Part shown: one piece after another, positions 3,436-31,626 of the stretch
Numbering within the stretch: position 1 is the first letter of the stretch
Layout: each line of letters opens with the position of its first letter
Source of the DNA: an uncultured Deferribacteres bacterium
GTDB lineage: Bacteria > Zhuqueibacterota > JdFR-76 > DREG01
NCBI GenBank assembly: GCA_913009825.1
Contig: CAJVYQ010000026.1
Coordinates: forward strand, 1 to 64,000
DNA length: 64,000 nucleotides
Direction of reading: 5' to 3'
Program-made: the position numbers and the translations under genes
Notes under the pieces: generated by a model
Seen by the model: only the letters and a program-made list of their open reading frames with translations
Databases searched by the model: none
Told to the model about the DNA's origin: nothing

Positions 3436-3519
3436 GTTAATATTAGGTTTTTACTTTAAATATAATATTTTTCGTGCCTTAGTGTCTTTGTGGCAACGGT
3501 TTGTGAATAATGCAGGTTA
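3310..3519. repeat. MITE-like repeat family B, copy 1
   Basis: About 210 bp, almost identical to 24547-24775. The ends are imperfect inverted repeats (TTAGCCTGAAAAATTCATT at the left; the right end reads TTAACCTGCATTATTCAC on the other strand). The interior is AT-rich and non-coding. The left arm carries an 18-bp palindrome (3344-3361). The right arm does not, so the junction 3489/3490 is the empty site of the insertion seen at 24728-24745. Confidence 0.8.
3344..3361. repeat. 18-bp palindrome in MITE-B copy 1
   Basis: CCCGCCTGCACGGGCAGG lies between AAGGCAC and AAAGACAC. It is the exact reverse complement of the element at 24728-24745, and the same insertion is present at 24581-24598. Confidence 0.8.
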
Positions 3520-11684: not shown

Positions 11685-11926
11685 CTTCCTCGTTCCAGAT
11701 ATCTTTTCGTGAAAAATTTATCTTCTATTCCTTTATTGATAACAAAATTGCTAAAAAGAAGCACTGTTTTATGAGCAGTTTTGATATTTTCCATATCCAT
11801 CCGGTGGGCTCGCCATTTGTCCGATCCGTCAATCATGCGGATATCGCTGGTCCTGAATATTTTCAACAACTCCCCTTTCCTGTCATAATATTTAGTGCGG
11901 ATGCCAACCAAAAAAGCAGGAGACAT
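11681..11926 (-). pseudogene. Outer-membrane lipoprotein-sorting (LolA-like) protein, C-terminal remnant
   Basis: About 81 codons matching only the end of LolA-like outer-membrane lipoprotein-sorting proteins: KYYDRKGELLKIFRTSDIR, then HKTVLLFSNFVINKGIEDKF and FTKRYLER (the family ends in FTqryLeR). The N-terminal two-thirds, including the signal peptide, are absent. Sequence beyond 11926 is unrelated. Its stop codon overlaps the ATG of the DUF1302-like gene, showing that the two were an operon before truncation. Confidence 0.65.
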
Positions 11927-12336
11927 TACCTGAATACCAAGAATGGTGAATACGAGTTTTGCCGATCTTCTTCTATTTCAGGTATTTTACAAAATTTGCA
12001 GACAAGCGGAAAAATTGCTGAGAATTTGGAAAAAATCCATCCTTTCGATCATTTGAAAAAATGGGGGAATGTTTTAAGTGGTTGATAAGAAAATCTCTAC
12101 TTTGGGATTAAAATTTTAACAAAAATTCCAAATATCCATTTGAAAAGCCAGGCAGGCTGAATATCGGCCTGTCGGAAACAGGATATAAATATAAAGTCGA
12201 TATTTGACCGAACTTCTGAGGAATTTCCAAAAACTGCTTATGGAGAAAATATCTGAGAGTTGGCAAGCATGAAATTTGAAACATTTTGTCATTTTGGCTC
12301 CGGTATCAAATGAAAAAACGTAGGTAACTACAATAA
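11927..12336. other. Gene-poor stretch, remnants only
   Basis: No confident gene. A short plus-strand frame ends at 12085 with EKIHPFDHLKKWGNVLSG and could be the tail of a lost gene, but I cannot place it. The phrase GCAGGAGACATTA at about 11919 recurs downstream of the second HicB copy (about 15984), so small pieces of that locus are duplicated here too. No HicA-like frame precedes the orphan hicB. Confidence 0.4.
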
Positions 12337-12555
12337 ATGAAAGACTATCATATCAACATTTTCTACAGGGAAGAGGACGGAGGATATATTGCCGATATAC
12401 CCGATTTAAGCCATTGTTCTGCCTTTGGCCAAACCCCGCAAGAAGCGCTTTTAGAGGTACTAAAGGCGAAGAATGCCTGGATTGAATCAGCGCGTTCCAA
12501 CGGAAAACCTGTTCCGGAGCCGCATTACCGCCCGGTTGTTTACCAGGTTGCTTGA
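12337..12555 (+). CDS. hicB: Orphan HicB-family antitoxin (duplicate)
   Basis: 72 aa HicB N-terminal fold: NIFYREEDGGYIADIPDL, then CSAFGQTPQEAL. Differs from the HicB at 15716-15934 at only a few residues (LEVLKAKN against SEVLKAKD), and the near-identity starts only at the bases just before the ATG. There is no HicA toxin gene upstream, so this copy is a solitary antitoxin, possibly able to neutralise the nearby HicA. It lacks a C-terminal DNA-binding domain. Confidence 0.85.
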   Translation: MKDYHINIFYREEDGGYIADIPDLSHCSAFGQTPQEALLEVLKAKNAWIESARSNGKPVPEPHYRPVVYQVA

Positions 12556-12626
12556 ATACCGGGAATGAGGAAAATGAGTTTAGATATGAATTTGATGGTG
12601 TAGAAAGATTGACAGTTAACAAACAG

Positions 12627-12654
12627 TTGACATTTTTTAAAAACTTGTTATATT
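12627..12654 (+). promoter_or_regulatory. Sigma70-type promoter of the ABC-3C locus
   Basis: TTGACA (12627-12632), a 16-base spacer, and TATATT (12649-12654), 53 bases before the HNH gene. The same boxes with an almost identical spacer (ending AAACTTGT) occur at 16145-16172. Confidence 0.65.
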
Positions 12655-12706
12655 TATTATAAACGCTTTTTTCTAATCAAGTTGTCACTTTCCGATAATT
12701 AATTTT

Positions 12707-13471
12707 ATGGGCAAAAAAGATCAAGTTATGAGCCCTAAAAAACATATACCTGCAAGAGAAATCAAAATCCTCTGGGGCCGTGCGCACAACCGGTGCACGC
12801 TTTGCAAGACACCGCTGATCATGCAAGCACAGAGCGGCCCGCCTTATATCATTGGCAAAAATGCCCACATAGAAGGCGAGAACCCAAACTCTGCCCGATA
12901 TAATCCAAACCTTGATTATCCCGAGAAGAATGCCTATGATAATCTCATACTCCTTTGTCCAACTTGTCATGATAAAGTTGACAACGATCCACGGACTTTT
13001 ACTGTCTAAAAATTAAAGGAAATCAAAAAACAACACGAAGAGTGGGCGGAGCGAGGCGTGAGAAATCAAATGCCGGACATTACTTTTGCGGAACTTGAGG
13101 TCATTGTAAGGTATTTAACAAGCAATGAATTGCCGGAATTCGATGAAACTTTGATTCCACCGCATCCAAAAGAAAAAATAGAAAAAAATAAATTATCTGC
13201 AAAAGTTGAACACAATATTCGTATGGGATCGATGCAGGCACCCCTTGTAAAAGATTATATCAACAGATCACCGGACATCCAATTTGGTGACCGGCTGCGA
13301 AATTACTTTATTGAAAAATACAATGACTTGCGTGACGAACAGCAAAACGATGATTTGTTTTACTCCCTTTGGGATATTGCATGTGGAAAGTCATCTGAAT
13401 TTAATTTGCGGGCAGCGGGAGTGGCTGTGATTACCTATTTTTTTAACCAATGCGATATTTTTGAATCATGA
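12707..13471 (+). pseudogene. ABC-3C system HNH effector, interrupted by one stop codon
   Basis: One frame of 254 codons broken by a single TAA at 13007-13009 (codon 101). Residues 1-95 are an HNH nuclease with all key positions present: C30-x2-C33, H54 (KNAHIEGENP), N79 (YDNLILL), C84-x2-C87 and H88. After the stop the same frame continues KLKEIKKQHEEWAERG and ends in a helical domain (FGDRLRNYFIEKYNDL, AAGVAVITYFF) like the C-terminal domain that ties effectors to ABC-three-component systems. One base change (TAA from GAA, Glu) would explain the break. The end overlaps the middle-component gene by four bases. As read, only a bare HNH domain would be made unless there is read-through. Confidence 0.8.
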
Positions 13472-13695
13472 TCGTACCGAATAAAAATATTCGATTGCAA
13501 AATTCTTTGCTTGGCATGGGCGCACAACTGCTGGCGCAACTCCGGCATTCGCAAACCGTCTCATCGCTCTGGGATCGTGCGAAAACCGTAAAAGAAATAA
13601 ACTCGTACGACAAATTTGTTTTAACTCTGGATTTTCTGTTCATGATGAATCTGGTCGAATATAAAGATGGACTCGTATTAAAGGCGCAGCCATGA
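13468..13695 (+). CDS. ABC-3C system middle component
   Basis: 75 aa. NSLLGMGAQLLAQLRHSQTV, SLWDRA and DKFVLTLDFLFMMNLVEY match the small winged-helix-like middle component (MC6-type) of ABC-three-component defence systems, which bridges ATPase and effector (family knowledge: ABC-3C as defined by Krishnan and colleagues). It overlaps the effector upstream (ATGATC at 13468) and the ATPase downstream (ATGA at 13692), so the three genes are translationally coupled. Intact. Confidence 0.8.
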   Translation: MIVPNKNIRLQNSLLGMGAQLLAQLRHSQTVSSLWDRAKTVKEINSYDKFVLTLDFLFMMNLVEYKDGLVLKAQP

Positions 13696-15446
13696 TCAAG
13701 GCCGTACGATGTGACAAATCCTCATTCAAAGAAATCCATTTTTCTCCAGGATTCAATGTTGTTCTGGCTGAACGCACGGAAGCATCGTCCGACAAAGATT
13801 CCAGGAACGGACTTGGCAAGTCGACGCTCATCGAGATTATCCATTTTTGCCTGGGGGCGGACGCCACACCCAACAAAGGATTACGTGTCCCGGAACTGGA
13901 AGACTGGACATTCTTTTTAGATTTGACCTTAAACAACAGAGACTTAACCGTTGCCCGAAATACAAAGAATTTTGGCCACGTTAAATTAGAGGGAGATTTT
14001 AGCACCTGGCCTGTGCAACCCGAATTTAATGAAAAAGAAAAAGCATTCGTTTTAAAAATTAAGGATTGGAATCTTTGTCTCGGTTATCTTTTCTTTGGTC
14101 TTGAACCGGAAATTGTCAAACAGCAGTATTCGCCCACCTTTCGCAGCCTGTTTTCCTATTTTGCCAGAAGGGGGACGGAAGGATTTGCAAACCCATTCGC
14201 TCACCATTCCCAACAAAAACCGTGGGACATCCAGGTCAACAACGCCTGGCTGCTCGGTTTGAACTGGGAGTATGCAGCGCAATTTCAAATCCTGAAGGAT
14301 AAAGAAAAGCTGCTCAAAGATTTGGGCAGAGCCGCAAAACAAGGCATACTGACCGGCTACCTGGGAAGCATCGGAGAACTGGAAGCCGAACGCACAACGT
14401 TGTCCGAGCAAATAGAAAAAAACGCCTCCCAGCTTAAAAGCTTCAAAGTCCATCCCCAGTATACGGATATTCAAAATGAAGCAAATATATTGACCGCACA
14501 GACTCATGCGATTGTGAATGAACAAACGATGAATAAACGCTTATTGGAACAATACCAAAACAGCATTACAGAGGAAAAAGATGTTCCGGTCTCTGATGTC
14601 GAACTGGTTTATACAAAAGCCGGCGTGGTCTTTTCCGATGTGGTGAAAAAGCGTCTTGAGGATGTTGTTGATTTCCATCAACAAATTGTCGGCAATCGAA
14701 AGTCCTATTTGCAGGATGAGATCAAGCGGCTGCAACGTGAGATTGAACAACAAAGCGCAACAATTAAAAATCTTGGGGACAAACGAGCCGGATTGCTGCA
14801 GATACTGCAAACACACGGCGCTCTTGACGAATATACAAAACTGAACCGGCGTCAGACAGATTTACAGCAGCAGTTGTCCGAGATTGAAAACCGTATAAAA
14901 AACCTCAAACAATTTGAAACCGGCATCAGCAACCTGAAAATTGAGCGGGAAGAACTGCGCCAAAAAGCCCGCCGGGATTTTGAGGAACGCCAACTCATCA
15001 CCGACAATGCCCGCCGACTTTTTAACGCCAACTCGGAATACCTTTATGCCGAGCCGGGTTCCCTGATCATTGACCTGACCGACACCGGCTATAAATTTGA
15101 CATCGACATAAAACGGGCGGGCAGCTTGGGCATCGGCTATATGAAGGTATTCTGCTATGACCTGATGCTCATCAAACTGCAAAAAGATAAATCGCTCTCC
15201 CCCGGACTCTTAATACACGACAGCACTATTTTTAACGGGGTTGATGAAAGGCAGGTGGCCAAGGCATTAGAATTGGCCATGTCGGAAACTGATAAGAATG
15301 GTTTTCAATATATCGTGACGTTGAATTCGGACCAGGCGCCGAGGGATGATTTTAGTGACGATGCTATGGCGCAGTTTGAGGATGGCATAAAAATAAAATT
15401 TACGGATGCGACGGATGAGGGGGGATTGTTGGGAGTTCGCTATTGA
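13692..15446 (+). CDS. ABC-3C system ATPase (DUF2326-type)
   Basis: 584 aa SMC/RecN-like ABC ATPase. Walker A is at residues 40-45 (GLGKST). A long Gln/Glu/Lys-rich coiled coil spans roughly residues 225-440. The C-terminal lobe carries LGIGYMKVFCYDLMLI and the D-loop/Walker B region LLIHDSTIFNGVDERQ (about 506-521), then IVTLNSDQAPRDDF. This arrangement is characteristic of the ATPase of ABC-three-component anti-phage systems, which senses and licenses the effector. The gene is intact even though its effector is broken. A second, truncated copy of the C-terminal lobe lies at 17083-17568. Confidence 0.88.
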   Translation: MIKAVRCDKSSFKEIHFSPGFNVVLAERTEASSDKDSRNGLGKSTLIEIIHFCLGADATPNKGLRVPELEDWTFFLDLTLNNRDLTVARNTKNFGHVKLEGDFSTWPVQPEFNEKEKAFVLKIKDWNLCLGYLFFGLEPEIVKQQYSPTFRSLFSYFARRGTEGFANPFAHHSQQKPWDIQVNNAWLLGLNWEYAAQFQILKDKEKLLKDLGRAAKQGILTGYLGSIGELEAERTTLSEQIEKNASQLKSFKVHPQYTDIQNEANILTAQTHAIVNEQTMNKRLLEQYQNSITEEKDVPVSDVELVYTKAGVVFSDVVKKRLEDVVDFHQQIVGNRKSYLQDEIKRLQREIEQQSATIKNLGDKRAGLLQILQTHGALDEYTKLNRRQTDLQQQLSEIENRIKNLKQFETGISNLKIEREELRQKARRDFEERQLITDNARRLFNANSEYLYAEPGSLIIDLTDTGYKFDIDIKRAGSLGIGYMKVFCYDLMLIKLQKDKSLSPGLLIHDSTIFNGVDERQVAKALELAMSETDKNGFQYIVTLNSDQAPRDDFSDDAMAQFEDGIKIKFTDATDEGGLLGVRY

Positions 15447-15464
15447 TTTTATTTGTATGGGAAA

Positions 15465-15719
15465 ATGAAAGAACGTAAATTACTACAAAAATTAATATCA
15501 GGATCCAAGAATGTTCGATTCTCCGAAGCAACGGCAGTTGCCAGGGCTTTTGGTTTTAAATTAGATCGGATTACAGGCAGCCATCATATTTTTATACATC
15601 CTGATTTACCGGAATTGATTAATTTGCAAAACGTAAACGGAAAAGCGAAACCATACCAGATAAAACAACTATTAAAAATAGTTGAGAAATATAATCTCCG
15701 GATGGAGGACGATAAATGA
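15465..15719 (+). CDS. hicA: HicA-family mRNA interferase toxin
   Basis: 84 aa from ATG 15465. The dsRBD-like HicA fold is seen in FGFKLDRITGSHHIFIHPDL, where the GSHH histidine is the catalytic residue, followed by INLQNVNGKAKPYQIKQLLK. HicA toxins cleave mRNA. Its stop overlaps the hicB start (ATGA at 15716), the usual toxin-first hicAB layout. It starts 18 bases after the ABC-3C ATPase stop, so it may be co-transcribed with that system. A TTG at 15453 would extend it by four residues. Confidence 0.9.
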   Translation: MKERKLLQKLISGSKNVRFSEATAVARAFGFKLDRITGSHHIFIHPDLPELINLQNVNGKAKPYQIKQLLKIVEKYNLRMEDDK

Positions 15720-15934
15720 AAGACTATCATATCAACATTTTCTACAGGGAAGAGGACGGAGGATATATTGCCGATATACCCGATTTAAGCCATTGTTCTG
15801 CCTTTGGCCAAACCCCGCAAGAAGCGCTTTCGGAGGTTCTGAAAGCGAAGGATGCCTGGATTGAATCAGCGCGTTCCAACGGAAAACCTGTTCCGGAGCC
15901 GCATTACCGCCCGGTTGTTTACCAGGTTGCTTGA
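15716..15934 (+). CDS. hicB: HicB-family antitoxin
   Basis: 72 aa, paired with hicA through an ATGA overlap. It has the HicB partial-RNase-H-like fold (YREEDGGYIADIPDLSHC and a GQTPQEAL helix) and no DNA-binding C-terminal domain, so autoregulation would need another factor. Near-identical copy at 12337-12555. After 15934 the two loci diverge at once. Confidence 0.9.
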   Translation: MKDYHINIFYREEDGGYIADIPDLSHCSAFGQTPQEALSEVLKAKDAWIESARSNGKPVPEPHYRPVVYQVA

Positions 15935-16144
15935 ACTTAAAAAAACGAGAAAGCGCGTCCGACAGGCCGCATAATGGGCAAAAGCAGGAGACATTATTTG
16001 AATACAAAGGGAAAAGACCGAAATAATTGACGACACGATTCAGGTTGACAATGTGAGATTCGAGCTAAGGACCGCATGGTTTTATGGGTGGGACATCAGA
16101 TCTTTAATAATTGAAAGGGATTATGGAGAATATTTTTTAACTAG
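15935..16144. other. Gene-free stretch before the second defence cassette
   Basis: No coding signal. Contains GCAGGAGACATTATTTGAATAC at about 15984, shared with 11919, and ends at the promoter at 16145. The upstream gene-free region of the nuclease (to 16280) otherwise holds nothing recognised. Confidence 0.4.
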
Positions 16145-16172
16145 TTGACATTTTTAAAAAACTTGTTATATT
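16145..16172 (+). promoter_or_regulatory. Second copy of the ABC-3C-type promoter
   Basis: TTGACA (16145-16150), 16-base spacer ending in AACTTGT, TATATT (16167-16172). Boxes and spacer are almost identical to 12627-12654, although the genes that follow differ. The nuclease start is 109 bases downstream, leaving a longer leader than at the first copy. Confidence 0.65.
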
Positions 16173-16280
16173 AAATGCAAGCAATATTGAAAAAGAGGTT
16201 TTATCGTCCCTTATCTTCAATTTAAGCGGTTCCTCTCCAGGTATTAATTGTGTGGGTATAATTAAAATTGAAAGATTTCT

Positions 16281-16697
16281 ATGTACTCATTAGAAATACA
16301 ACTTGTTGAAGATTTCAAAAACAACCTGCTTCCACTAGATCATCCGTTTAGAATAACCGAATTAGCAGATGAATTTAATTATTTGAACGGCAGGGTTGAT
16401 GTTATTGCTAAATCTGAAGAGGGTTTATTGATTGCATTTGAAGCCAAGTTAAAAAAGTGGAGAATCGCTTTAAATCAGGCGTATCGTAATTCATCATTCG
16501 CCCATCTTTCCTATGTTGTTTTACCCACTGACAGTGCAACGAACGCCTTGAAGAATTACAATGAATTCCTGAAACGGGGCGTAGGTCTATGTTCTGTCAA
16601 CTCTGAAGGAATTAAAATTGAAATTAATGCTAAAAAAAATAAACCGTTGCAACCCTGGTTAACTGATTCCGCATTTAATTTTATCGCGAGCGCTTAA
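16281..16697 (+). CDS. PD-(D/E)XK-type nuclease domain protein
   Basis: 138 aa. The catalytic pattern of a restriction-endonuclease-like fold is visible: GRVDVIA (Asp) followed by LIAFEAKLKKW (E-x-K) about 17 residues later, then QAYRNSSFAHLSYVVLP, which resembles the conserved helix and strand after the core. A single-domain nuclease; partner and target unknown. It is followed after one base by a kinase-like gene, then by the remnant of an ABC-3C ATPase, and is served by an ABC-3C-type promoter. It may be an alternative effector of a degraded second system, or a foreign cassette that replaced it. Confidence 0.65.
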   Translation: MYSLEIQLVEDFKNNLLPLDHPFRITELADEFNYLNGRVDVIAKSEEGLLIAFEAKLKKWRIALNQAYRNSSFAHLSYVVLPTDSATNALKNYNEFLKRGVGLCSVNSEGIKIEINAKKNKPLQPWLTDSAFNFIASA

Positions 16698-16698
16698 T

Positions 16699-17082
16699 AT
16701 GTCCGATGAGCCAGAACTTGAAAGTATCGCTTTAGAATTTGCCATTAAGAAAAACTTGAACGTTATAAAATTTGCCGGAAAAGGGGCATTTAAAGAAACC
16801 TATTGGTCAAATCGTATTCTTTCTCAATTCAAAGAAGAACCGGGGAAAGCCTGGGCTGGATTATCGTGGCGGCATTATCTAAGCTGGTTTGGCAAAACTG
16901 AAAGGGAAATATCAAATGGTAATCCAATCAAAACTGTAAAAGATTGGTTAAAAAATGCTGAGACAAACAGGCTGATGTTGGAAGATGAAGAAATCCTGTT
17001 GGAAGAACCGCGGAATAATGGTTCATGGCTAAGACCCTGGCGGCAGGCCATGGCAAAGTTTTCTAAATTTTATGACGTGTAA
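16699..17082 (+). CDS. Kinase glycine-loop fragment joined to an unknown domain
   Basis: 127 aa, starting one base after the nuclease stop. Residues 1-35 look like the start of a Ser/Thr protein kinase (SIALEFAIKKNLNVIKFAGK, then GAFKETY as the glycine-rich ATP loop), but no catalytic HRD or DFG follows. Residues 36-127 (WAGLSWRHYLSWFGK, SWLRPWRQAMAKFSKFYDV) belong to something I do not recognise. The simplest reading is an internal deletion that fused a kinase N-terminus to the end of another gene. Function should not be assumed. Confidence 0.4.
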   Translation: MSDEPELESIALEFAIKKNLNVIKFAGKGAFKETYWSNRILSQFKEEPGKAWAGLSWRHYLSWFGKTEREISNGNPIKTVKDWLKNAETNRLMLEDEEILLEEPRNNGSWLRPWRQAMAKFSKFYDV

Positions 17083-17568
17083 CAAAAAGCGCACAGATGT
17101 TTTAATGAACGACAAACTATAACAGACAAGGAAAGACAGATTTTAAATCAGAATTTCGAAAACCTTTGTAATGAGCCGAGCCGGCTGATTGTTTCACTGA
17201 GCGAACCCGGCTATCAATTTCATATCGAAATTAAGCGGACCCGCAGTTTGGGCATTGGTTACATGAAAGTGTTCTGCTATGACCTTATGCTTGTCAATCT
17301 GCAAAAAAATAAACCGTTCTCACCTGATGTCTTAATTCAAGACAGCAACATTTTTAACGGGGTTGATGAGCGGCAGGTGGCAAAAGCGCTGGAACTGGCT
17401 ATAAAAGAATCTGATGAAAACGGCTTTCAATATATTGTGACGTTGAATTCGGATCAGGTGCCGCGAAATGATTTTAGTGAGGATGCTATGGCGCAGTTTG
17501 AGGATGCTATAAAAGTGAAATTTACAGATGCGATGGATGATGGTGGATTGTTGGGGATACGATTTTAA
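17083..17568 (+). pseudogene. Second ABC-3C ATPase, C-terminal remnant
   Basis: An open frame of about 160 codons that matches only the C-terminal lobe of the ATPase at 13692-15446: CFNERQTITD, NEPSRLIVSLSEPGYQFHIE, LGIGYMKVFCYDLMLV, FNGVDERQVAKALELA and the same terminal GGLLGIRF. Walker A and the coiled coil are missing. The two differ at many silent and amino acid positions, so this is a diverged paralogue, not a recent duplicate. The homology starts right at the stop codon of the kinase-like gene. Internal starts exist (TTG 17248), but a functional product is unlikely. Confidence 0.8.
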
Positions 17569-21925: not shown

Positions 21926-22804
21926 ATGTTAAAACAATTATTATTAAATGGCCTCATCTCTGGGAGTATTTATGCCTTAGTCGCTCTAGGATTTGCAATA
22001 ATATACAGAACAGTGAGGTTTTTTCATTTCGCACATGCCATTGTTTTCACCTCAGGACCTTACTTCACGTTTTTGTTTAAAAATGTTTTTTTAATCCCCA
22101 TCTATTTATCCATTCCGCTTGCGATAATTTCTTCAACATTTCTCGGTTGCCTTCTTGATATATCTATCTATCGTCCACTCAGACAGAAAAAAGCGTCATC
22201 AATGATCCTGCTTTTAGCTTCGTTAGGTATTTATATTGTTTTACAAAATCTACTTTCGATGGTATTTGGAGATGATACAAAATCTATCTGCATTTCAAAA
22301 ATACTTGAAGGAATAAATATTTTTGGCGCACGTATAACTTCTATCCAAATTGCTATTATTTGTATTACCATTATTCTTTTATTATCTATAGTGATATGGA
22401 TGAAAAAGACAAAAATGGGCAAACTTGTACGAACTGTTTCAAATGATGCTGAACTTGCAGATATTTCAGGGATAGATAGTGATAAAGTCATATTAAGTAC
22501 ATTTGCTATAGGCTCTTCTTTAGCAAGTGTTGCAGGTATTTTAGTTGCATTTGATGTCGCCATGACACCTACGATGGGATTCGATGCTCTAATGATGGGG
22601 GTTATTGCTGTGATAATAGGCGGAATTGGAAGTATATCAGGAATTGCACTTGGCGCCTTGTTGCTTGGATTAGCACAGAATCTTGGAGTTTGGTATATTA
22701 ATTCTCAGTGGCAGGATGCCATTGCCTTTGCCATCATGCTCATCTTTCTGCTTTTCCGCCCCCAGGGCTTTTTCGGCAAACCGCTAAAAAAAGCGGAAAT
22801 TTGA
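21926..22804 (+). CDS. livH: Branched-chain amino acid ABC transporter permease LivH
   Basis: 292 aa inner-membrane permease with about eight TM segments. Family marks: LISGSIYALVALGFAIIYRT at the start, FFHFAHAIVF, the cytoplasmic EAA-like loop (SNDAELADISGID) that docks on the ATPases, and VIIGGIGSISGIALGALLLG near the end. Works with LivM, LivG, LivF and LivK. Composition is uneven: the first ~780 bases are AT-rich like the upstream genes, while the last ~95 (from about 22708, QDAIAFAIMLIFLLFRPQGF) are GC-rich like livM. This suggests a recombination breakpoint inside the gene. Confidence 0.9.
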   Translation: MLKQLLLNGLISGSIYALVALGFAIIYRTVRFFHFAHAIVFTSGPYFTFLFKNVFLIPIYLSIPLAIISSTFLGCLLDISIYRPLRQKKASSMILLLASLGIYIVLQNLLSMVFGDDTKSICISKILEGINIFGARITSIQIAIICITIILLLSIVIWMKKTKMGKLVRTVSNDAELADISGIDSDKVILSTFAIGSSLASVAGILVAFDVAMTPTMGFDALMMGVIAVIIGGIGSISGIALGALLLGLAQNLGVWYINSQWQDAIAFAIMLIFLLFRPQGFFGKPLKKAEI

Positions 22805-22897: not shown

Positions 22898-23269
22898 TTG
22901 AGTTATCGTAATTTAGAAATTTGGAAATTAGCCAGGGATGTTTCTGTAATAGTTCATAAAATGACTTTGCAAAAACTTCCAAAATTTGAGATGTATGAAG
23001 AAGGTGGTCAGATAAGAAGATCGAGTAAATCGGTAAAATCGACTATTGTAGAGGGATATGGCAGAAGAAGATATGTAATGGATTATATTAAATTTCTAAT
23101 CTATGCTCAAGCTTCAAATGATGAAACGATTGATCATCTGGAAACTCTATACGAAACCGGTTCATTGAAAGATAAAGAACTATTTAACATACTGCATAAA
23201 AAAATAGATACATTAGGAAAAATGATCAATAAATTTATTCAATCAATAGAAAATGCCGGAAACAGGTAA
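22898..23269 (+). CDS. Four-helix-bundle protein, S23/23S rRNA intervening-sequence family
   Basis: 123 aa. [20 protein letters not shown], the [20 protein letters not shown] core and [19 protein letters not shown] match the S23/IVP family (diversity-generating accessory proteins and rRNA intervening-sequence proteins share the fold). TTG start at 22898 with GGAGAA upstream. Here it lies between livH and livM, not in an rRNA gene, flanked by short CCAGTAAC repeats as such free-standing copies often are. Biological role unknown; behaves as a small mobile or passenger gene. Confidence 0.85.
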
Positions 23270-23318: not shown

Positions 23319-24194
23319 ATGGATTATTTTTTACACATATTGATTCTAATAAACATCTACATCATCATTGCGATTTCGTTGAACCTAATTTCCGGCTACA
23401 CCGGTTTGCTGTCCCTGGCCCATGCCGCATTCTATGGCATCGGCGCTTATGCCACGGCGCTGATGTGGCTGTATCTAAAAACCGGGTTTTGGGTCAATAT
23501 CTGGGTGGGCATCCTGGTTTCGGCCATCCTGGGCATCATTATCGCCTACCCCTCCCTGCGCATTTATGATGATTATTTCGCCATTGCCACTTTTGGCTTT
23601 CAAATGATCGTGTTCAGCATTTTCAACAACTGGGTGGGATTCACCAAAGGGCCGCTGGGCATTCCCGGTATTCCTTCCCCTTCTATTTTTGGGTGGGAGG
23701 TTTCTTCCCATTGGGCCTATTTGCTGTTGTCCGGTTTCTTCGCTGTTTTAGTTTACTGGCTAACGCACCGGCTGGTCAATTCGCCTTTTGGCTTGGCACT
23801 CAAAGGTATTCGGGAGGATGAGATTTTCACCAAAGCCTCGGGAAAAAATATTACCAGATACAAGATGCTCGTTTTCATCATCGGCGGCTCCATGGCCTCC
23901 ATCGCCGGGGCGCTGTATGCGCATTATATTTCCTACATCGATCCCACCAGTTTTACCATCAACGAGTCGATTTTCATGATCTCCATCGTCATCATCGGCG
24001 GCATGGCCAGTCTGCGGGGTTCGGTGCTGGGAGCGGTTGTTCTGGTAATCCTGCCGGAGGCGCTGCGTTTTATCGGCCTGCCCAACGCCGTGGCCGCCAA
24101 CCTGCGGCAGATATTTTACGGCGCCCTGCTGGTGCTGTTTATGATGTACCGGCCGCGGGGGTTTGTGGGGGAGTATGAGCTTACTAAGAAGTAA
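23319..24194 (+). CDS. livM: Branched-chain amino acid ABC transporter permease LivM
   Basis: 291 aa inner-membrane permease. Marks: ISLNLISGYTGLLSLAHAAF, LRIYDDYFAIATFGFQMI, the docking loop ALKGIREDEIFTKASGKN, and IIGGMASLRGSVLGAVVLVI near the C-terminus. GC-rich, in contrast to livK and most of livH. The last 206 bases (23989-24194) recur at 26438-26640 and, in part, at 27355-27478. The present copy ends in ELTKK, while both downstream copies end in QMQK, so the tail now fused to livM is a different allele from the displaced ones. Confidence 0.92.
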   Translation: MDYFLHILILINIYIIIAISLNLISGYTGLLSLAHAAFYGIGAYATALMWLYLKTGFWVNIWVGILVSAILGIIIAYPSLRIYDDYFAIATFGFQMIVFSIFNNWVGFTKGPLGIPGIPSPSIFGWEVSSHWAYLLLSGFFAVLVYWLTHRLVNSPFGLALKGIREDEIFTKASGKNITRYKMLVFIIGGSMASIAGALYAHYISYIDPTSFTINESIFMISIVIIGGMASLRGSVLGAVVLVILPEALRFIGLPNAVAANLRQIFYGALLVLFMMYRPRGFVGEYELTKK

Positions 24195-24315
24195 GAAGTA
24201 AAAAGATTAAAGACTGGATAATATAGGAAATAGGGGCCCAGGAAAATATGGGTATGGTGAATAAGGAAGCGGCATAAGGGCGAAGAGATGAAACGTGGAA
24301 TTAATTTGAAATTGG

Positions 24316-24379
24316 AAATCTGTTTAACCCTTTAAGTTATTGTAAAATAGAGATTTCTCGAGTTTTCGGACAGACACTA
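24316..24379. repeat. MITE-like repeat family A, copy 4 (truncated)
   Basis: Half of a family A element: from AAATCTGTTTAACCC to the terminal GTTTTCGGACAGACAC, followed by TA. The other TIR is gone. Confidence 0.75.
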
Positions 24380-24417
24380 ATTAACGGATAAGCAACAAGG
24401 ATCTATTAGAATTAGTT

Positions 24418-24508
24418 GTAACATCCCCCTAAATCCCCCTTTGAAGGGGGCAAGGGGGATGTTAAAATTAAATTCAAATCAAAAAATAAGCACACCTGAG
24501 TAGTTACA
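24418..24508. repeat. MITE-like repeat related to family C
   Basis: Starts TGTAAC and ends CACACCTGAGTAGTTACA, the family C right end. The interior is a different hairpin (ATCCCCCTAAATCCCCC against GGGGGCAAGGGGGAT). A hybrid or nested repeat. Confidence 0.6.
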
Positions 24509-24580
24509 AAAAAACTATAATTTTGTTCTGTACTACAAGGAAGTTCTTTAGCCTGAAAAATTCATTCGCCACGAAGGCAC

Positions 24581-24598
24581 CCCGCCTGCACGGGCAGG
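24581..24598. repeat. 18-bp palindrome, left arm of MITE-B copy 2
   Basis: CCCGCCTGCACGGGCAGG, same place and orientation as 3344-3361, so this insertion predates the spread of the MITE copies. Confidence 0.8.
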
Positions 24599-24727
24599 AA
24601 AGACACAAAGGCTGAAAAAATAAAGTGTTATGTAAAATTATACGTAAATAGAAAAATACACAAAATAAACTGAGTTAATATTAGGTTTTTACTTTAAATA
24701 TAATATTTTTCGTGCCTTAGTGTCTTT

Positions 24728-24745
24728 CCTGCCCGTGCAGGCGGG
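24728..24745. repeat. 18-bp palindrome, right arm of MITE-B copy 2
   Basis: CCTGCCCGTGCAGGCGGG inserted between GTCTTT and GTGGCAACGG. The other MITE-B copy reads GTCTTTGTGGCAACGG without it (3484-3499). No base was lost and no clear target duplication is seen. Confidence 0.85.
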
Positions 24746-24819
24746 GTGGCAACGGTTTGTGAATAATGCAGGTTAGGATATTACAAGTGAAATTATGTAC
24801 AAAAACGGCAAAATATTTT

Positions 24820-25594
24820 TATCAGACATGATTAAGCTGCCCTATCAATGCCGACGTCGGCAGAGACGGCAAGCAGGCTGCTGTTATAGCCTCGAGACGC
24901 TAAGATGCGGTTGACGACCCTGCGAGAGGTGGGGGAAGTCTGCTACTGACTGTGCGGTAACGGCGCAAACAGTCAGGGCCGCCGGGATGGTTCTCAGTTG
25001 TATGTTTGCGAACGGTTATTGTGTGAACGCAGGAGATCTCCTTTACCGGGATTGACCATCTCAAGCGACTTGAAATAAAGCGCAAGGCGGAAATTCAAGT
25101 TGGGTTCAGGAGAAGTCAGATGAGCTCATAGTAGCGCTGATCCCCGGGAAGGTAAAACCGGGAGTAGCGAAGGAGCTCTACCTTATTCACGCTTTTAAAG
25201 AACAGGAGTACGATTCCATTGTCCACAGGACTAAAAAGAATAGAATCAAAAGTACGCCGGTATCAGCGAAAGCTTTATCTCAAGGCCAAGCAGGACGTAG
25301 AAAGAGTCAACGACGCAGCGAGTCGATGGTCATAGAGCCTACGAGCATCTGATAAAATCAGGACTTGTTGTTTTGTAACGTCGTCGCTCCCGGCGAATAC
25401 CTTGCGATGAAGAATAAGCGCCCAAGTCCCGCTGTGGCGGGAGAAAACCGCACGTACGGATGGGGAAAGGGGGCGCTGATGACGCCTGATGAAATAGCCT
25501 GGAGTAGCGCCCGAAAGGACTGCACGAAACAGGCGGCTAAGTCAGCGCTCTACTCGATCGTTAAATTCTCTTCTATTTCTTGTCCGGGTTAGGA
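24820..25594 (+). mobile_element. ORF-deleted group II intron remnant
   Basis: The RNA-like sequence matches bacterial group II intron text: the domain I block GGGGGAAGTCTGCTACTGAC followed by GTGCGGTAACGGCGCAAAC, a region GGAGAAGTCAGATGAGCTCA, and near the 3' end ACCGCACGTACGGATGGGG (domain V-like). Between them, about 25240-25320 encodes the usual start of the intron protein (RIESKVRRYQRKLYLKAKQD) but a stop follows soon, and the reverse transcriptase body is missing. Boundaries are approximate because folding could not be computed. Lies in the 1.6-kb gene-poor stretch after livM. Confidence 0.7.
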
Positions 25595-25808
25595 TTATCC
25601 TGTTTACAAATTGTGTAATCGTTTTCCAAAGGGATCGGTACTGGGAGTATTGTTGCTTATTATTTTGCTGAATGCGCAATGTTCTATCTGTCTGTCTAAT
25701 ACAAGGCGATGTATTAGCGATATTTTTTACGGCATTAGAGAGATATAAATAAGTTGAATTTTTCAAATTCATTTTTTATTATTATCAGTAAATATAGGAT
25801 TAACATTT

Positions 25809-26156
25809 ATGGAAACTTTGCTTAATCATCGTGCATCAAAGAAAAAAATAAAACCAATCCCTGTTGATAAGAACATTACTATTCTGAATTTAGGTCATGT
25901 TAAATACATTTTTAAATCACCTTTTCCTGTTAATATTGTGTTGGAAGATAATGTTTATATTGCCTTCTCCTACGATTTGAATCTGTTTGGTTATGGAGAG
26001 AATGAAGATGAAGCGGTACGAGATCTTTGTGAAAGTATAATTGAGCATTATGAACACCTAAAATCTAACCGGGAAAATCTTGGTTATCTTTTGAAACGTG
26101 ACTGGGAATTTCTAACTCGATTGATTATTGAGTTAGAGGAGGCTACTTGCAATTAA
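25809..26156 (+). CDS. Putative HicB-like antitoxin
   Basis: 115 aa. The middle resembles a HicB-type half domain (NIVLEDNVYIAFSYDLNLFG, YGENEDEAVRDLCESIIEHY); the rest is not recognised. Overlaps the next gene by ten bases and precedes it, so an antitoxin-first pair is likely. Together with the HicA-like gene it forms the cargo just upstream of the second livM 3' end. Assignment rests mainly on pairing. Confidence 0.5.
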   Translation: METLLNHRASKKKIKPIPVDKNITILNLGHVKYIFKSPFPVNIVLEDNVYIAFSYDLNLFGYGENEDEAVRDLCESIIEHYEHLKSNRENLGYLLKRDWEFLTRLIIELEEATCN

Positions 26157-26425
26157 AGAAAAGAGAAATGCGCAGTGTTTTCTCGAAGTTAAAAATGCGG
26201 ATAGCTCACACCCATCATAAAATTGCTTACTTTGAATATAAGGGAACCGAATATCTTAAAACTCGCGTCTCGCATGGACAAGGTGATATTCCAAAACCGG
26301 TAATTGATCGTATTCGCAAACAACTATTTTTGAATCGATCTCAATTTAAGGATTTGGTAAAATGTCCACTGGGATATGATGAATTTGTTGTAATTTTAAA
26401 GGGAAAAAACATTATCTCGAAATAA
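26147..26425 (+). CDS. Putative HicA-like toxin
   Basis: 92 aa. IAHTHHKIAYFEYKGTEYLK, TRVSHGQGDIP and RKQLFLNRSQFKDLVKCPL fit a HicA-like toxin group with H-x-HH and SHG motifs (a dsRBD-like RNA-cleaving fold in the family). TTG start at 26147 is supported by GAGGAGGCT just upstream; ATG 26168 is an alternative. Its stop at 26425 is only about a dozen bases from the start of the duplicated livM end, so the cargo boundary is tight. Confidence 0.6.
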   Translation: MQLKKREMRSVFSKLKMRIAHTHHKIAYFEYKGTEYLKTRVSHGQGDIPKPVIDRIRKQLFLNRSQFKDLVKCPLGYDEFVVILKGKNIISK

Positions 26426-26437
26426 TGAGTGTAGTGT

Positions 26438-26640
26438 TCATCATCGGCGGCATGGCCAGTCTGCGGGGTTCGGTGCTGGGAGCGGTTGTTCTGGTCATTC
26501 TGCCGGAACTGCTGCGCTTCATCGGCCTGCCCAACGCCGTGGCCGCCAACCTGCGGCAGATATTTTACGGCGCCCTGCTGGTGCTGTTTATGATGTACCG
26601 GCCGCGGGGGTTTGTGGGAGAGTACCAGATGCAAAAGTAA
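26438..26640 (+). pseudogene. Duplicated livM 3' end, copy 2
   Basis: 203 bases matching the end of livM, from the codons for IIGGMASLRG to the stop, with a handful of mostly silent differences from 23989-24194 and a different tail (GEYQMQK). A short in-frame start exists upstream (26425), but a 70-residue piece of a permease has no expected function. Best read as a displaced gene end. Confidence 0.85.
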
Positions 26641-26718
26641 GGGGATTATTTGCTTGATTAAAGGTCTTTATGTGGATATATTTGATTGTAAAGACGAAAT
26701 TGAGCGGGAGGAATTGTG

Positions 26719-26934
26719 ATGATTACACGAGAAGTCGTCATCGAAGAAATTCGGAAAATACCCGAATCGAATCTTGAAGAGCTTTTTAAGATTATCAGGG
26801 ATTTTGAATCTGCCGAAAAAATCAAGTCCGGGCCTGGCCTTATGTCCAAATTAAGAGATATTAAAATTTCTGCCGCCGATGATTTTTCACAGACTGCGGA
26901 TTTATACAAATCCGGAGATGATAATAATGAATAG
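26719..26934 (+). CDS. VapB-like antitoxin of a VapBC-type pair
   Basis: 71 aa from ATG 26719 (GGGAGGAA ribosome binding site). ITREVVIEEIRKIPESNLEE is like the N-terminal region of small antitoxins such as those with DUF2281-type folds; the C-terminal half is acidic and probably wraps the toxin. Overlaps the start of the PIN toxin gene by eight bases. Confidence 0.55.
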   Translation: MITREVVIEEIRKIPESNLEELFKIIRDFESAEKIKSGPGLMSKLRDIKISAADDFSQTADLYKSGDDNNE

Positions 26935-27330
26935 CGCTTTTATCGATACCGCATTTGTAGTGCCTTGATTAACCGGAATGATGTATACCATTCTCAAGCA
27001 ACAGAATTATCCAGGAAATACGAAAATAAACCAATGATTACGACAAACATTGTATTGCTGGAAATTGGGAATGCTTTGGCCCGAAATTACAAACGTGAAG
27101 CGGTACAGATTATCAAACCATTTAGGTCTTCCGATGAGGTGACGATTGTTGAATTGAATGCACTTGTTTTTAAAAAGGGATTTGAAATCTATGAACAGTA
27201 TGACGATAAAAGCTGGGGATTGGTAGACTGCATTTCGTTTGTCGTGATGCGAAATAATGATGTTACAGACGCACTAACATCTGATACTCATTTCGGGCAG
27301 GCGGGTTTCAATGTCTTGATGCAAAAATGA
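26927..27330 (+). pseudogene. VapC-type PIN-domain toxin, one-base frameshift
   Basis: Reading from ATG 26927 gives MNSAFIDTAFVV and then a stop. If one G is restored at about 26962, the frame continues ALINRNDVYHSQA to 27330, with the PIN acidic residues at FIDTAF, LLEIGNAL, WGLVDCISFVVM and TSDTHFGQAGF. So a normal ~134-aa VapC RNase has lost one base after codon 12. The antitoxin gene is intact. Either genuine inactivation or a read error. Confidence 0.75.
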
Positions 27331-27354
27331 TAATAACGAATCCATTTTCAAAAT

Positions 27355-27478
27355 CTTCATCGGCCTGCCCAACGCCGTGGCCGCCAACCTGCGGCAGATT
27401 TTTTACGGCGCCCTGCTGGTGCTGTTTATGATGTACCGGCCGCGGGGGTTTGTGGGGGAGTATCAGATGCAAAAGTAG
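27355..27478 (+). pseudogene. Duplicated livM 3' end, copy 3
   Basis: 124 bases, starting 25 bases after the VapC stop, matching livM from the codons for FIGLPNAVAANLRQ to the stop. Ends GEYQMQK like copy 2, with about four single-base differences from it. Shorter than copy 2 and with no start codon of its own. Confidence 0.85.
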
Positions 27479-27576: not shown

Positions 27577-27765
27577 ATGAGAGATGTTAAAAACAAAGTT
27601 ATTAGCCTGGTTGAATCCTTGCCGGACAATGTCACATTGGATGATATTATGGCGGAACTGTATTTTAAACTCGAGGTTGATGCCGGTCTTGCGGAACTGG
27701 ATGAAGGAAGGGGCATACCACACAACAGGGTTAAAGAACGGATTGGAAAATGGCCAAAGAAATAA
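27577..27765 (+). CDS. Small antitoxin of a RelE/ParE-type pair
   Basis: 62 aa from ATG 27577 (GGAGA 9 bases upstream; a TTG at 27562 is less likely). VKNKVISLVESLPDNVTLDD, ELYFKLEVDAGLAELDEGRG and HNRVKERIGKW match short antitoxins that partner ParE/RelE toxins. Overlaps the toxin by 16 bases. Confidence 0.75.
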   Translation: MRDVKNKVISLVESLPDNVTLDDIMAELYFKLEVDAGLAELDEGRGIPHNRVKERIGKWPKK

Positions 27766-28043
27766 TCTGGTCGCCGCGGGCGGCGGAAAACCTTGAGGAC
27801 ATTTTCGGATATATCGCTAAAAATTCTGAACATTATGCCTCTATGGTCGCCAAAAGAATTCTTCAAATAATAGAAACAATACCTGAATTCCCCTACATGG
27901 GGCGAGTCGTCCCTGAATACAAAGATGACTCGCTAAGAGAACAATTTTATAAACACTATCGCATCGTATATAGAATTAAAGAAAAATCGATTGAGATTGT
28001 TGCTATCGTTCATGGCGCGCGGTTATTAAAAGATATCAGTTGA
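27750..28043 (+). CDS. RelE/ParE-family toxin
   Basis: 97 aa. IIWSPRAAENLEDIFGYIAK, IPEFPYMGRVVPEY, REQFYKHYRIVYRI and the HGARLL ending are standard for the ParE/RelE (plasmid stabilisation) fold. Residues cannot decide between gyrase poisoning and ribosome-dependent mRNA cleavage. Third TA module between livM and livG, and the first not followed by another livM end. Confidence 0.85.
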   Translation: MAKEIIWSPRAAENLEDIFGYIAKNSEHYASMVAKRILQIIETIPEFPYMGRVVPEYKDDSLREQFYKHYRIVYRIKEKSIEIVAIVHGARLLKDIS

Positions 28044-28290: not shown

Positions 28291-29337
28291 ATGCCTTACA
28301 GGACTATTTTAAATACATGCGTTGAACGCCTCGGGGAATTCCCGCCTGTTCAAAGCGTCTCTCCTGCCATTGTGAGTGATGCTGAACAGGTGGAAATTAT
28401 TATCGATAACGCAAAAATTATCTTTCGAACAGAAATAAAGGGAATTTTAAAACGGCCGCTCCCGTATCATTTGTTCGTTAAACGTGCTGAGAAAAGCGAA
28501 AGGCCTTTGCTTTTACTTGCCGAATATGTAAATGATTCAATTGCTTCGGATCTGAAAAAGCATGGCATTAATTTTATCGATTGTGCAGGAAATGCGTTCA
28601 TTCATGTTCCGGGCAAAGCATACCTGGAAATCCGGGGCAAGACAAATCCACGACAAAAAGAAAGACAAACATCAGCTCTTTTCCAACCAAAGGGTTTGCG
28701 GCTACTTTACATTTTGCTTGTAAAAAAGGAATCTTTAAATCAAACGGTTCGGCAACTTGCAAAAATCTCCGGTATTTCAACCGGACGTGTCGTTCAGATT
28801 TTAAAAGAACTGAGAGAGAAAGGATATATTTTTAAAAACAATTCCGGCCAGTTCCAATTTGCTAATACACAGAAATTGTTTGAACAATGGCTGGCAAACT
28901 ATGGAGACCGGCTCAGGCCAAAACTTGTACTGGAGAGTTTTAAAATCTTACCAACTCTGGTCGATAAAATTCCTTTTATGCTAAAAGATGCTTTTTCTGA
29001 TAGTCCTGCCGATTATGCCATTGGTGGAAGCCTGGGCGCCAATATTTTGACGAGTTACTATCGAGGCCACACAACGGAAATTTATGTGCGTCCGGCCATA
29101 CTGACCAGGTTGAAAGAAACTCTGAAATTAATGCCCGCACGGGAAACTGATGTAACCGTATTTAATTTATTCTCGCCGTATGTTATTTTTGAATCTGAGA
29201 AAACTGGTTTTTCTACGGCGCATCCGCTGTTCATTTATGCTGAATTATTGCACCAGGGCGGCAGCCGGGAACGTGAAACGGCACAAATAATTTATAACAC
29301 TTATCTTGAACAGATTTTTGCTAAAAATGGAACCTGA
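28291..29337 (+). CDS. AbiEi-family antitoxin (type IV TA)
   Basis: 348 aa. FIDCAGNAFIHVPGKAYLEI, QTVRQLAKISGISTGRVVQI (winged HTH) and LKELREKGYIFK are characteristic of a long AbiEi-type antitoxin. The C-terminal half (ADYAIGGSLGANILTSYYRG, TEIYVRP) is the antitoxin domain. It would repress the operon and counteract the nucleotidyltransferase toxin. Overlaps abiEii by 11 bases. Confidence 0.8.
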   Translation: MPYRTILNTCVERLGEFPPVQSVSPAIVSDAEQVEIIIDNAKIIFRTEIKGILKRPLPYHLFVKRAEKSERPLLLLAEYVNDSIASDLKKHGINFIDCAGNAFIHVPGKAYLEIRGKTNPRQKERQTSALFQPKGLRLLYILLVKKESLNQTVRQLAKISGISTGRVVQILKELREKGYIFKNNSGQFQFANTQKLFEQWLANYGDRLRPKLVLESFKILPTLVDKIPFMLKDAFSDSPADYAIGGSLGANILTSYYRGHTTEIYVRPAILTRLKETLKLMPARETDVTVFNLFSPYVIFESEKTGFSTAHPLFIYAELLHQGGSRERETAQIIYNTYLEQIFAKNGT

Positions 29338-30124
29338 CCTACAAGTTGTTCTTGAAAAACTCGCGGAATCATTTAGGAAAAATGATGTCCAATTCGTTTT
29401 GATTGGTGCCATTGTTCCGGAGATTCTGATTGATGGAAAAGAAAAGGACGGCAAAGGATTTGGCATCAGAAAAACCCATGACGTGGATTGCACAATTCGT
29501 GTAAAAAACTGGGATGAATATAAAGACATCTTTGCAAAATTAATGCAAACGGGATTTGAAAAGCGGAAAAATCAGCCGGAACACCGTCTTTATTTTCGGG
29601 ATATTCCGGCTGATATTTTGCCGTACGGAATCGGACTTGTTCAGGAAGATCAAATTATCTGGCCGCAAACGGGAAACCGAATGCGCACGACGGGTTTCGA
29701 TTTATTATTTGCAATGGCGACGGAAGAACCCATTTCAGATTCTCTTTCCATACCGGTCATTCCATTGTCTTTGGCCGTCTATTCCAAAGTGATAGCATTT
29801 CTGGATCGCAAGGCATCCAAAGATTTGACGGATATATTTTATATCCTGTCGCACTATGAAGAAGGTACTGTGAGCGAAAGGCGGGTTGACCCTGATATAC
29901 CAGAGGTATTGCCTTATGAAACAAGAGGTGCCTATTTACTCGGACTGGATCTGGGAGGTATATTGCCAAATAATGAAAAACAACTAGTGCAATCTTTTTT
30001 TGACTATATCAATATCCCTGATGTAGCATACGTAACTGAAGCTTGCAGAACGATTCGTATAGATACAAGTGAATTTTTTGAATTAATCAACGTATTCAAA
30101 AGAGCCTTGTTTTCTTTCTCCTGA
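29327..30124 (+). CDS. AbiEii-like nucleotidyltransferase toxin
   Basis: 265 aa from ATG 29327, overlapping the AbiEi gene. A DNA polymerase-beta-like nucleotidyltransferase: FVLIGAIVPEILI, then KTHDVDCTIRV supplying the D-x-D metal pair, and YSKVIAFLDRKASKDLTDIF (the K/R...D of the AbiEii/MenT family). Such toxins modify tRNA with nucleotides and give phage abortive infection. Last inserted module before livG. Confidence 0.75.
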   Translation: MEPDLQVVLEKLAESFRKNDVQFVLIGAIVPEILIDGKEKDGKGFGIRKTHDVDCTIRVKNWDEYKDIFAKLMQTGFEKRKNQPEHRLYFRDIPADILPYGIGLVQEDQIIWPQTGNRMRTTGFDLLFAMATEEPISDSLSIPVIPLSLAVYSKVIAFLDRKASKDLTDIFYILSHYEEGTVSERRVDPDIPEVLPYETRGAYLLGLDLGGILPNNEKQLVQSFFDYINIPDVAYVTEACRTIRIDTSEFFELINVFKRALFSFS

Positions 30125-30169: not shown

Positions 30170-30922
30170 ATGAGTGAATTTGAAATAAAAAATATATGCA
30201 AAACCTTTGACGGCATCCGGGCGGTCAATGACTTTTCTTTTGAATGGAAAGATCATAAAATCGTCGGCCTCATCGGTCCGAACGGCGCCGGAAAAACGAC
30301 GCTATTTAACATTATTACCGGATTTCTGCCGGCAGATTCAGGGCAATTTATTTTCAAAGATAAAGATATATTGCGTTCACCGGCGCATCGAATCGTTTAC
30401 AAAGGCATCGCCCGCACATTTCAGAATTTGCGGCTGCTTCGGCAAATCACAGTGCTGGAGAATATTTTGTTTTGCCGTCTCAACCAGGTTGGCGAGTCGC
30501 CGATATCGGCGTGGATTAAAAACAAAACGTATCGGGTTAGTCAGAAACAGAACCGGGAAAAGGCGGAGTCCATTCTTGAATTCATCGGCCTTGCGGATAA
30601 ACGCCATGACCTGGCGGAAGCATTATCTTACGGACAACAAAAATTATTGTCGCTGGGCTGCTGCCTGGCGACGGAAGCGGAATATTTGCTCCTGGACGAA
30701 CCTGTCTCCGGCGTCAATCCGGCGATGATTGAAAAAATAATGGAATTGCTCAAATCCCTGGCCGGGCAAGGCCGGAAAATATTGTTGATTGAACATAACA
30801 TCCAGGCCGTCAGGGAAATTTGCGAGCGGTTGATCGTAATGGATGAGGGCAAAAAAATCGCCGAAGGTAAACCTGACCGGGTTTTAAAAAGAGAAGAAAT
30901 CATCGAGGCTTATCTGGATTGA
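30170..30922 (+). CDS. livG: Branched-chain amino acid ABC transporter ATP-binding protein LivG
   Basis: 250 aa cytoplasmic ATPase. Walker A GLIGPNGAGKTT, signature ALSYGQQKLLSLGCC, Walker B YLLLDEPVSGVNP and the LIEHN H-loop are intact. LivG-type rather than LivF-type by the inserted helix region around residues 100-135. Energises LivHM together with LivF, whose start lies two bases after the LivG stop. Must now be reached by transcription through the TA modules, or use a local promoter (TTGTTATATTTT at 30150 is a candidate -10 region). Confidence 0.93.
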   Translation: MSEFEIKNICKTFDGIRAVNDFSFEWKDHKIVGLIGPNGAGKTTLFNIITGFLPADSGQFIFKDKDILRSPAHRIVYKGIARTFQNLRLLRQITVLENILFCRLNQVGESPISAWIKNKTYRVSQKQNREKAESILEFIGLADKRHDLAEALSYGQQKLLSLGCCLATEAEYLLLDEPVSGVNPAMIEKIMELLKSLAGQGRKILLIEHNIQAVREICERLIVMDEGKKIAEGKPDRVLKREEIIEAYLD

Positions 30923-30924
30923 AT

Positions 30925-31626
30925 ATGCTGGAAATACGTCACCTCAAAACAGGATACGGGAAAAAATTAATCATCGACGATGTGTCCCTGGATTTGTGTG
31001 AGGGGGAAATAGTGGCTCTTATCGGCCACAACGGCGCCGGGAAATCTACTATTTTGAAATCGATTATCGGTGTGCTGCCGAAATGGAGCGGGGAAATTGT
31101 TTTTGAGGGAAATACACTTGATTCCAGGCCTCACCAAATCGTGCGCCGGGGTATCTCCATGATCCCGCAAGGCAGCCAGGTGTTCGATGAGATGACAGTG
31201 CAGGAAAATCTGGAAGTTGCTTCATTTATTTTCAAAGACAAAAAACCGGTGCGGCAGCGCTTTGAAGAAGTCTACCGGCAGTTCCCGCTTTTGCGGGAAC
31301 GCCGCAAACAATCCGCCGGTAAGCTCAGCGGCGGCGAGCAGCAGATGCTGGCACTGGGAATGGCGCTGATCCAACGCCCGAAATTACTTTTGATGGACGA
31401 ACCCTCTTTGGGACTTTCACCCGCCTATGTAAAACAAGCTTTTCAGATGATCAAAGACCTGAATGAAAGATACGGCATGTCCATTCTCATCGTTGAACAA
31501 AAGGTAAAAGAAGTTTTAAAATTCTCCAACCGCACCTATGTTTTGCGCCTGGGAAAAGTGGCGCTGACAGGAGACGCACGGGAAGTGTTGGATAAAGGGG
31601 AGTATAAAAAAATATTTCTAACCTGA
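30925..31626 (+). CDS. livF: Branched-chain amino acid ABC transporter ATP-binding protein LivF
   Basis: 233 aa ATPase, the usual LivF length. Walker A ALIGHNGAGKST, signature KLSGGEQQMLALGMA, Walker B LLLMDEPSLGLSP and LIVEQ are intact. Start chosen at ATG 30925; a TTG at 30919 overlapping the livG stop is possible. Last gene of the liv operon; no clear terminator between it and the convergent rhodanese remnant. Confidence 0.93.
   Translation: MLEIRHLKTGYGKKLIIDDVSLDLCEGEIVALIGHNGAGKSTILKSIIGVLPKWSGEIVFEGNTLDSRPHQIVRRGISMIPQGSQVFDEMTVQENLEVASFIFKDKKPVRQRFEEVYRQFPLLRERRKQSAGKLSGGEQQMLALGMALIQRPKLLLMDEPSLGLSPAYVKQAFQMIKDLNERYGMSILIVEQKVKEVLKFSNRTYVLRLGKVALTGDAREVLDKGEYKKIFLT

Follow-up and report, generated by a model that had tools for sequence, protein, structure and literature searches.

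Described insertions with long duplications and the livM locus

Chromosomal toxin-antitoxin (TA) modules spread even where no plasmid, phage or transposon carries them, and how they do so is still debated. We consider here a locus in which copies of the 3′ end of the transporter gene livM bracket TA-like gene pairs. The locus lies in a 64,000-nt stretch (the window) of contig CAJVYQ010000026.1 from an uncultured Deferribacteres bacterium (assembly GCA_913009825.1, labeled G000), a draft in 123 contigs.

Accounts that cite Nobusato et al. 2000 (PMC3874152, PMC1643837) describe restriction-modification (RM) systems as inserting with a long target duplication of variable length. As far as these accounts go, the livM locus is similar in that addiction-type cargo lies between long, variable direct repeats of a host target with no transposase, but differs in that the cargo is mostly TA and the repeats appear to be gene ends of different alleles, stacked in tandem. 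In Escherichia coli, circularized linear DNA integrating by a single crossover produces partial duplications of 109–950 bp of the homologous locus (PMC3240628). The partial duplication with foreign DNA between its copies is shared with our locus; however, the E. coli case is a laboratory product, whereas livM-type brackets are natural, repeated and carry TA cargo.

In the type VI secretion system immunity arrays of Vibrio cholerae (PMC5361080), a new module likewise sits beside a conserved gene with old 3′ ends and genes shifted downstream, but there the effector's own 3′ end and immunity gene are displaced, while at our locus an unrelated transporter gene supplies the displaced end. Operon insertion of RM systems also places a selfish module co-directionally within an operon, and a duplication in Helicobacter pylori arose from one homologous and one non-homologous junction (PMC4615327); the differences lie in the RM and integrative and conjugative element context and in the length of the duplication (1577 bp). 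Superintegron TA cassettes resemble the locus as arrays of co-directional TA modules separated by repeats. Here, however, no integrase was found near livM and the separating repeats are host-gene pieces, not attC sites; we rejected an integron cassette array at livM because the repeats are livM coding sequence and the locus has no integrase open reading frame (ORF).

Three copies of the livM 3′ end

The original prediction that the livM 3′ end occurs three times in the window was confirmed by aligning the copies, as were the tail ELTKK on livM and the tail QMQK common to the two displaced ends:

23319–24194, plus strand: intact livM, tail ELTKK (Pfam BPD_transp_2, 1.7e-49); its last 206 nt (23989–24194) are end 1
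26438–26640, plus strand: end 2, first of two displaced copies of this 3′ end, tail QMQK (96% over 187 nt)
27355–27478, plus strand: end 3, second displaced copy (124 nt), tail QMQK (97–98% over 111–123 nt)

A 26-base probe from the livM end matches exactly three sites at up to three mismatches, with none expected by chance. No further copy was found elsewhere in the whole genome, nor did the probe reveal a fourth end upstream of livG. Each end has its own flanks, three distinct on the left and three distinct on the right, and the presence of three copies therefore does not depend on how the assembler treated their shared core; on these grounds an assembly artefact is unlikely. Across 82 genomes of the phylum, the only real matches to a 125-nt livM end are in G000 and in the genome labeled G048, the many weak matches being chance, and viral contigs, when scanned, contained no livM end.

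Ends 1 and 2 differ at 17 of 203 sites, yet share one identical run of 98 nt, the longest exact run common to them (p = 1e-4; p = 0.011 with the tail excluded). With their block-wise differences and different tails, they look like different alleles. The displaced copies also have unequal breakpoints, extending over 203 and 124 nt.

Gene pairs between the livM ends

Two pairs of small genes lie between the ends, upstream of livG and livF:

25809–26156, plus strand: cargo 1 gene 1, antitoxin-like, HicB-like by weak similarity (BLASTP against the HicB at 15716, 30% over 43 aa)
26147–26425, plus strand: cargo 1 gene 2, toxin-like, no match in family library scans
26716–26934, plus strand: cargo 2 antitoxin in the VapB position (a closely similar antitoxin precedes a VapC relative in genome G069)
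26928–27330, plus strand: cargo 2 toxin VapC (PIN), frame broken near its start (Pfam PIN, 1.1e-6 on 26965–27330)
30170–31626, plus strand: livG and livF, which in the relatives checked come directly behind livM

All cargo genes between livM and livG are co-directional with livM. TA-like pairs thus lie between the ends as predicted, but in the first gap they are accompanied by dispersed repeats and the remnant of a group II intron. The gaps before ends 2 and 3 are short, though they span 12 and 24 intervening bases instead of the 13 and 25 claimed.

A pair of small genes does occupy 25809–26425, between ends 1 and 2, but its predicted HicAB identity lacks support from hidden Markov models: neither protein matches a Pfam, NCBIfam or PADLOC family at normal thresholds, and no HicA or HicB domain was detected. 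Their predicted structures are of too low confidence for a fold search (mean pLDDT 53 and 44). Among the 81 further genomes searched in the phylum, none encodes a homologue of the gene 2 product at E≤1e-8, and this protein was not found in viral contigs; the gene 1 product was not found in phage records, and both proteins are absent from the plasmid records searched. A HicAB assignment is plausible. For the VapBC-like pair predicted between ends 2 and 3, the PIN match and the antitoxin ORF hold, but vapC is frameshifted near its start. The toxin is thus probably broken in this assembly; intact relatives exist.

Uninterrupted junctions and alleles in relatives

A search of relatives for a single uninterrupted livM-livG junction found it in three genomes (G078, G035 and G071), in which livG lies directly 3′ of livM or within ~75 bp; thus ~6 kb is inserted between the two genes here. 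These genomes are distant (53–66% protein identity), and the exact empty site was not seen in them.

The closest livM is that of G048, from another family of the phylum. Identity between the two genes rises along their length, from 83% in the first 300 nt to 88% in the 370 nt that follow and 96% at the end, with a single difference in the last 111 nt versus 101 in the preceding 747 (Fisher 1e-5); at fourfold sites, none of 22 differ in the last 111 nt versus 37 of 113 before. As near-identity to G048 is confined to the end of livM, this end was exchanged between lineages at a later time than the remainder of the gene. The motif PELLRF occurs in G048 and in end 2, while intact livM has PEALRF, and the G048 contig stops one base into the livM tail, at a base common to ends 2 and 3. 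The displaced ends therefore appear to be a different allele, close to livM of G048. The stop of this contig (C403; L058, L032) after the conserved livM core is as expected if the core is multi-copy in that sample too.

Together with the uninterrupted junctions, the G048-like displaced allele supports the earlier claim that the cargo brought its own gene end, kept livM intact and pushed the old end downstream. An order in which an old QMQK end was displaced and the ELTKK end is new fits the alleles but is not proved, because the G048 tail is unsequenced and the more distant G078, G079 and G035 all end in YELK. Upstream, livH (21926–22804) is AT-rich, and its last part jumps both in GC content and in similarity to G048, which suggests a recombination joint inside livH.

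The same anatomy at other genes

A scan for repeat brackets covered ~2.46 of the 5.1 Mb of G000; local repeat pairs judged to be paralogues, dispersed repeats or tandem arrays, of which G000 has many, were excluded from the count. One further bracket lies in the window, at an ABC-three-component (ABC-3C) system:

13692–15446, plus strand: ABC-3C ATPase (Pfam DUF2326, 1.3e-37; PADLOC PDC-M68B, 8.6e-196), its repeated 3′ end at 14961–15446
15453–17082, plus strand: cargo consisting of HicA (15453–15719; Pfam HicA, 7.9e-9), HicB (15716–15934; HicB_lk, 4.8e-5) and an unknown pair (16281–16697 and 16699–17082)
17083–17568, plus strand: displaced second ATPase 3′ end (80% over 386 nt), abutting the stop codon of the cargo
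12330–12556, plus strand: second hicB copy (97%, by sequence comparison) at the opposite flank of the ABC-3C module, where hicA has been lost

The ABC-3C system itself (12707–15446) comprises HNH, CTD10, MC6 and the DUF2326 ATPase (PADLOC PDC-M68), and hicB copies flank it on both sides. Two brackets lie on other contigs of G000:

C65 (L230), 10830–11915, minus strand: hsdM, then an ORF6N gene and a copied hsdM end at 9736–9930
C7 (L121), 11433–12956: Wzi-like gene, next a TumE-type pair, with the gene end and 3′ flank recurring at 14425–14867

The first is in a type I restriction operon (L230 9736–13359) in which the hsdM frame is split into two overlapping ORFs, and the ORF6N gene and copied hsdM end precede hsdS. 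The second belongs to a region of ~20 kb between two Wzi-like genes (L121 11433–20000, L196), with ~10 TA-type pairs, all in one direction, and between them copies either of the Wzi 3′ flank or of a different local repeat. We considered this TA island as an integron and rejected it, because the inter-module repeats match the Wzi-like 3′ flank and not, by eye, attC; an integron integrase was not searched for there.

Relatives also have brackets, as seen in 538 kb of their loci that had been retrieved for unrelated purposes. In G078 (L244), VapBC stands between a cyclase gene and a copy of the cyclase end. G079 (L095, L097) has an aldehyde dehydrogenase gene, BrnT with a likely BrnA, and a copied gene end, with a similar repeat in G077. 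G035 (L099) is a mirror case, in which a livH 5′ fragment and VapBC precede an intact livH; the process is thus not confined to 3′ ends. Its livH copies contain an 86-nt identical run inside otherwise divergent sequence. Across the brackets, the partial copies measure 124–486 nt and both target genes and breakpoints vary.

The association with TA modules was evaluated with 13 toxins located by family searches alone, leaving out the livM locus (family counts used: PIN 4, ParE 10, HicA 7). Locus-specific direct repeats enclose 4 of the 13, whereas 2.3% of random positions are so enclosed, which corresponds to a binomial probability of ~2e-4. TA addiction may resist cargo loss by direct-repeat recombination, which would account for this bias.

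A proposed route of entry and its alternatives

We consider it probable that these brackets are best explained by fragments consisting of a gene end and a TA module that end joining closed into circles and a single RecA crossover brought in. In this scheme, a foreign fragment with a gene end and the adjoining TA module would enter the cell, and end joining would close the fragment into a circle, joining the far side of the cargo into a truncated gene-end copy. The circle would then integrate by one homologous crossover within the shared gene-end sequence. The product would be an intact chimeric host gene, same-strand cargo, and a displaced partial gene-end copy starting where the circle was joined; at livM, at least two such integrations would be required. 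Recombination between direct repeats this long should be able to delete the cargo, so that cargo killing the cells that lose it would survive longest. We infer the circular intermediate, the order of events, and addiction as the selection against cargo loss. The near-identical stretches inside differing alleles (98 nt in livM, 86 nt in livH) may be the footprint of the homologous crossover; these identical blocks do lie inside divergent copies, while a complete donor haplotype, with an allele swap at the crossover point, is lacking. As single-crossover integration would have it, the brackets show a partial duplication of ~0.1–1 kb with foreign DNA between the copies and one copy of the gene intact.

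Several observations weigh against this explanation. Neither a donor molecule nor a circle nor a same-genus strain without the insertion was seen, and which end is donor and which recipient cannot be proved, with the G048 contig stopping at the livM end. The copies at other loci differ by 5–27%, so some events may be old and other origins are possible. The cargo of the hsdM bracket is an ORF6N gene and not a TA module. The TA test has a small sample, and two contigs, one of them that of the window, account for three of its four positives; TA hits are concentrated on C7, C26 and C30, and the pattern was the reason for choosing the window.

The alternatives differ in how they account for the duplicated end. 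A linear fragment could enter by homology-facilitated illegitimate recombination, homologous at the gene end and illegitimate at the other side; this follows the same logic of one-sided homology and has been proposed for the V. cholerae effector-immunity arrays, in which the effector 3′ end has been moved back (PMC5361080). In the E. coli experiment, however, the strict form of this process predicted partial deletion of the locus and the duplications came from circularized molecules (PMC3240628), and a duplication would require a second joint upstream of the gene's own end, making this origin unlikely. Quite unlikely is insertion with a long local target duplication, in which the cargo inserts and the host site itself is copied. 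The topology, variable lengths of ~100 bp and addiction cargo that the available accounts give for RM systems (PMC3874152, PMC1643837) are the same, and at livM long direct repeats of a host target do flank the cargo, with an uninterrupted junction in (distant) relatives. Plain copying of a local target would give repeats that were initially identical, but the copies look like different alleles with different tails, and G048 already suggests that the displaced end matches a donor lineage in an allele-specific way.

The original prediction compared the locus to integrative elements at tRNA 3′ ends. A site-specific element targeting the livM 3′ end, its integrase since lost, would carry a 3′ end that keeps the gene intact, and a near-identical 105-nt stretch is common to different families. 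As predicted, no integrase or other recombinase gene is visible among the ORFs between livM and livG, and the combination of an integrase and a fixed attachment core is not seen at the locus. We judge such an element very unlikely, since the breakpoints differ, the 64-kb window has no tRNA gene, and other genes and a 5′ end have the same structure. An integrase is also unnecessary, because a homologous single crossover explains the varied breakpoints, the varied targets and the 5′ mirror case. Unrelated stepwise segmental duplications or an assembly artefact are the most improbable origin: the assembly is a draft, and a 98-nt exact repeat could confuse short-read assembly, but each copy has unique flanks, the copies differ in sequence and the pattern recurs in independent genomes.

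Other features of the livM-livG interval

Apart from the gene pairs described above, the interval contains the following:

24195–24760, no strand: spacer 3′ of livM with dispersed repeats (~600 bp, by repeat comparison)
24541–24748, no strand: dispersed palindromic element of that spacer (also delimited as 24578–24748) with long inverted arms, also at 3304–3519, with related copies on at least C1, C2, C5, C7, C12 and C28
24885–25545 (end approximate), plus strand: group II intron remnant without an ORF (Rfam RF02005, E=4.6e-7; RF01998, E=0.0015; both below gathering score)
27580–28043, plus strand: small ORF in antitoxin position and ParE-type toxin (27750–28043; Pfam ParE_toxin, 2e-18)
28291–29337, plus strand: AbiEi-like regulator (Pfam AbiEi_2, 2.5e-16)
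29342–30124, plus strand: AbiEii-like nucleotidyltransferase (weak AbiEii matches)

Two further TA systems, ParE-type and AbiE-like, therefore lie between end 3 and livG. The intron remnant has no second copy in the 2.46 Mb scanned. A fluoride riboswitch candidate in the gap scored far below the Rfam gathering score and was taken as chance. Between livH and livM, a gene for a 23S rRNA-intervening-sequence (four-helix bundle) protein (22898–23269) has CCAGTAACCAG-type repeats on both sides.

Gene-end brackets and the spread of TA modules

Literature searches of incomplete coverage found no description of TA modules as the cargo of such insertions. Integrase-free entry via shared gene-end sequence is a known recombination accident, whereas its repeated link to addiction genes seems undescribed. 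More speculatively, and in our view doubtful, gene-end-linked TA modules might constitute an integrase-free mobile cassette in this phylum: RecA recombination between the direct repeats would free a circle of cargo and gene end, which would re-enter matching gene ends in other cells and be kept by addiction, with livM-type gene ends as docking sites collecting TA arrays.

The sequence signature, an intact gene followed by a TA module and a partial copy of the same gene end, is searchable in all genomes, and the route is testable in transformable laboratory strains. If homologous entry combined with addiction is the correct explanation, it would explain why TA modules are placed after the stop codons of unrelated genes, why they are co-oriented with them and why they stack.

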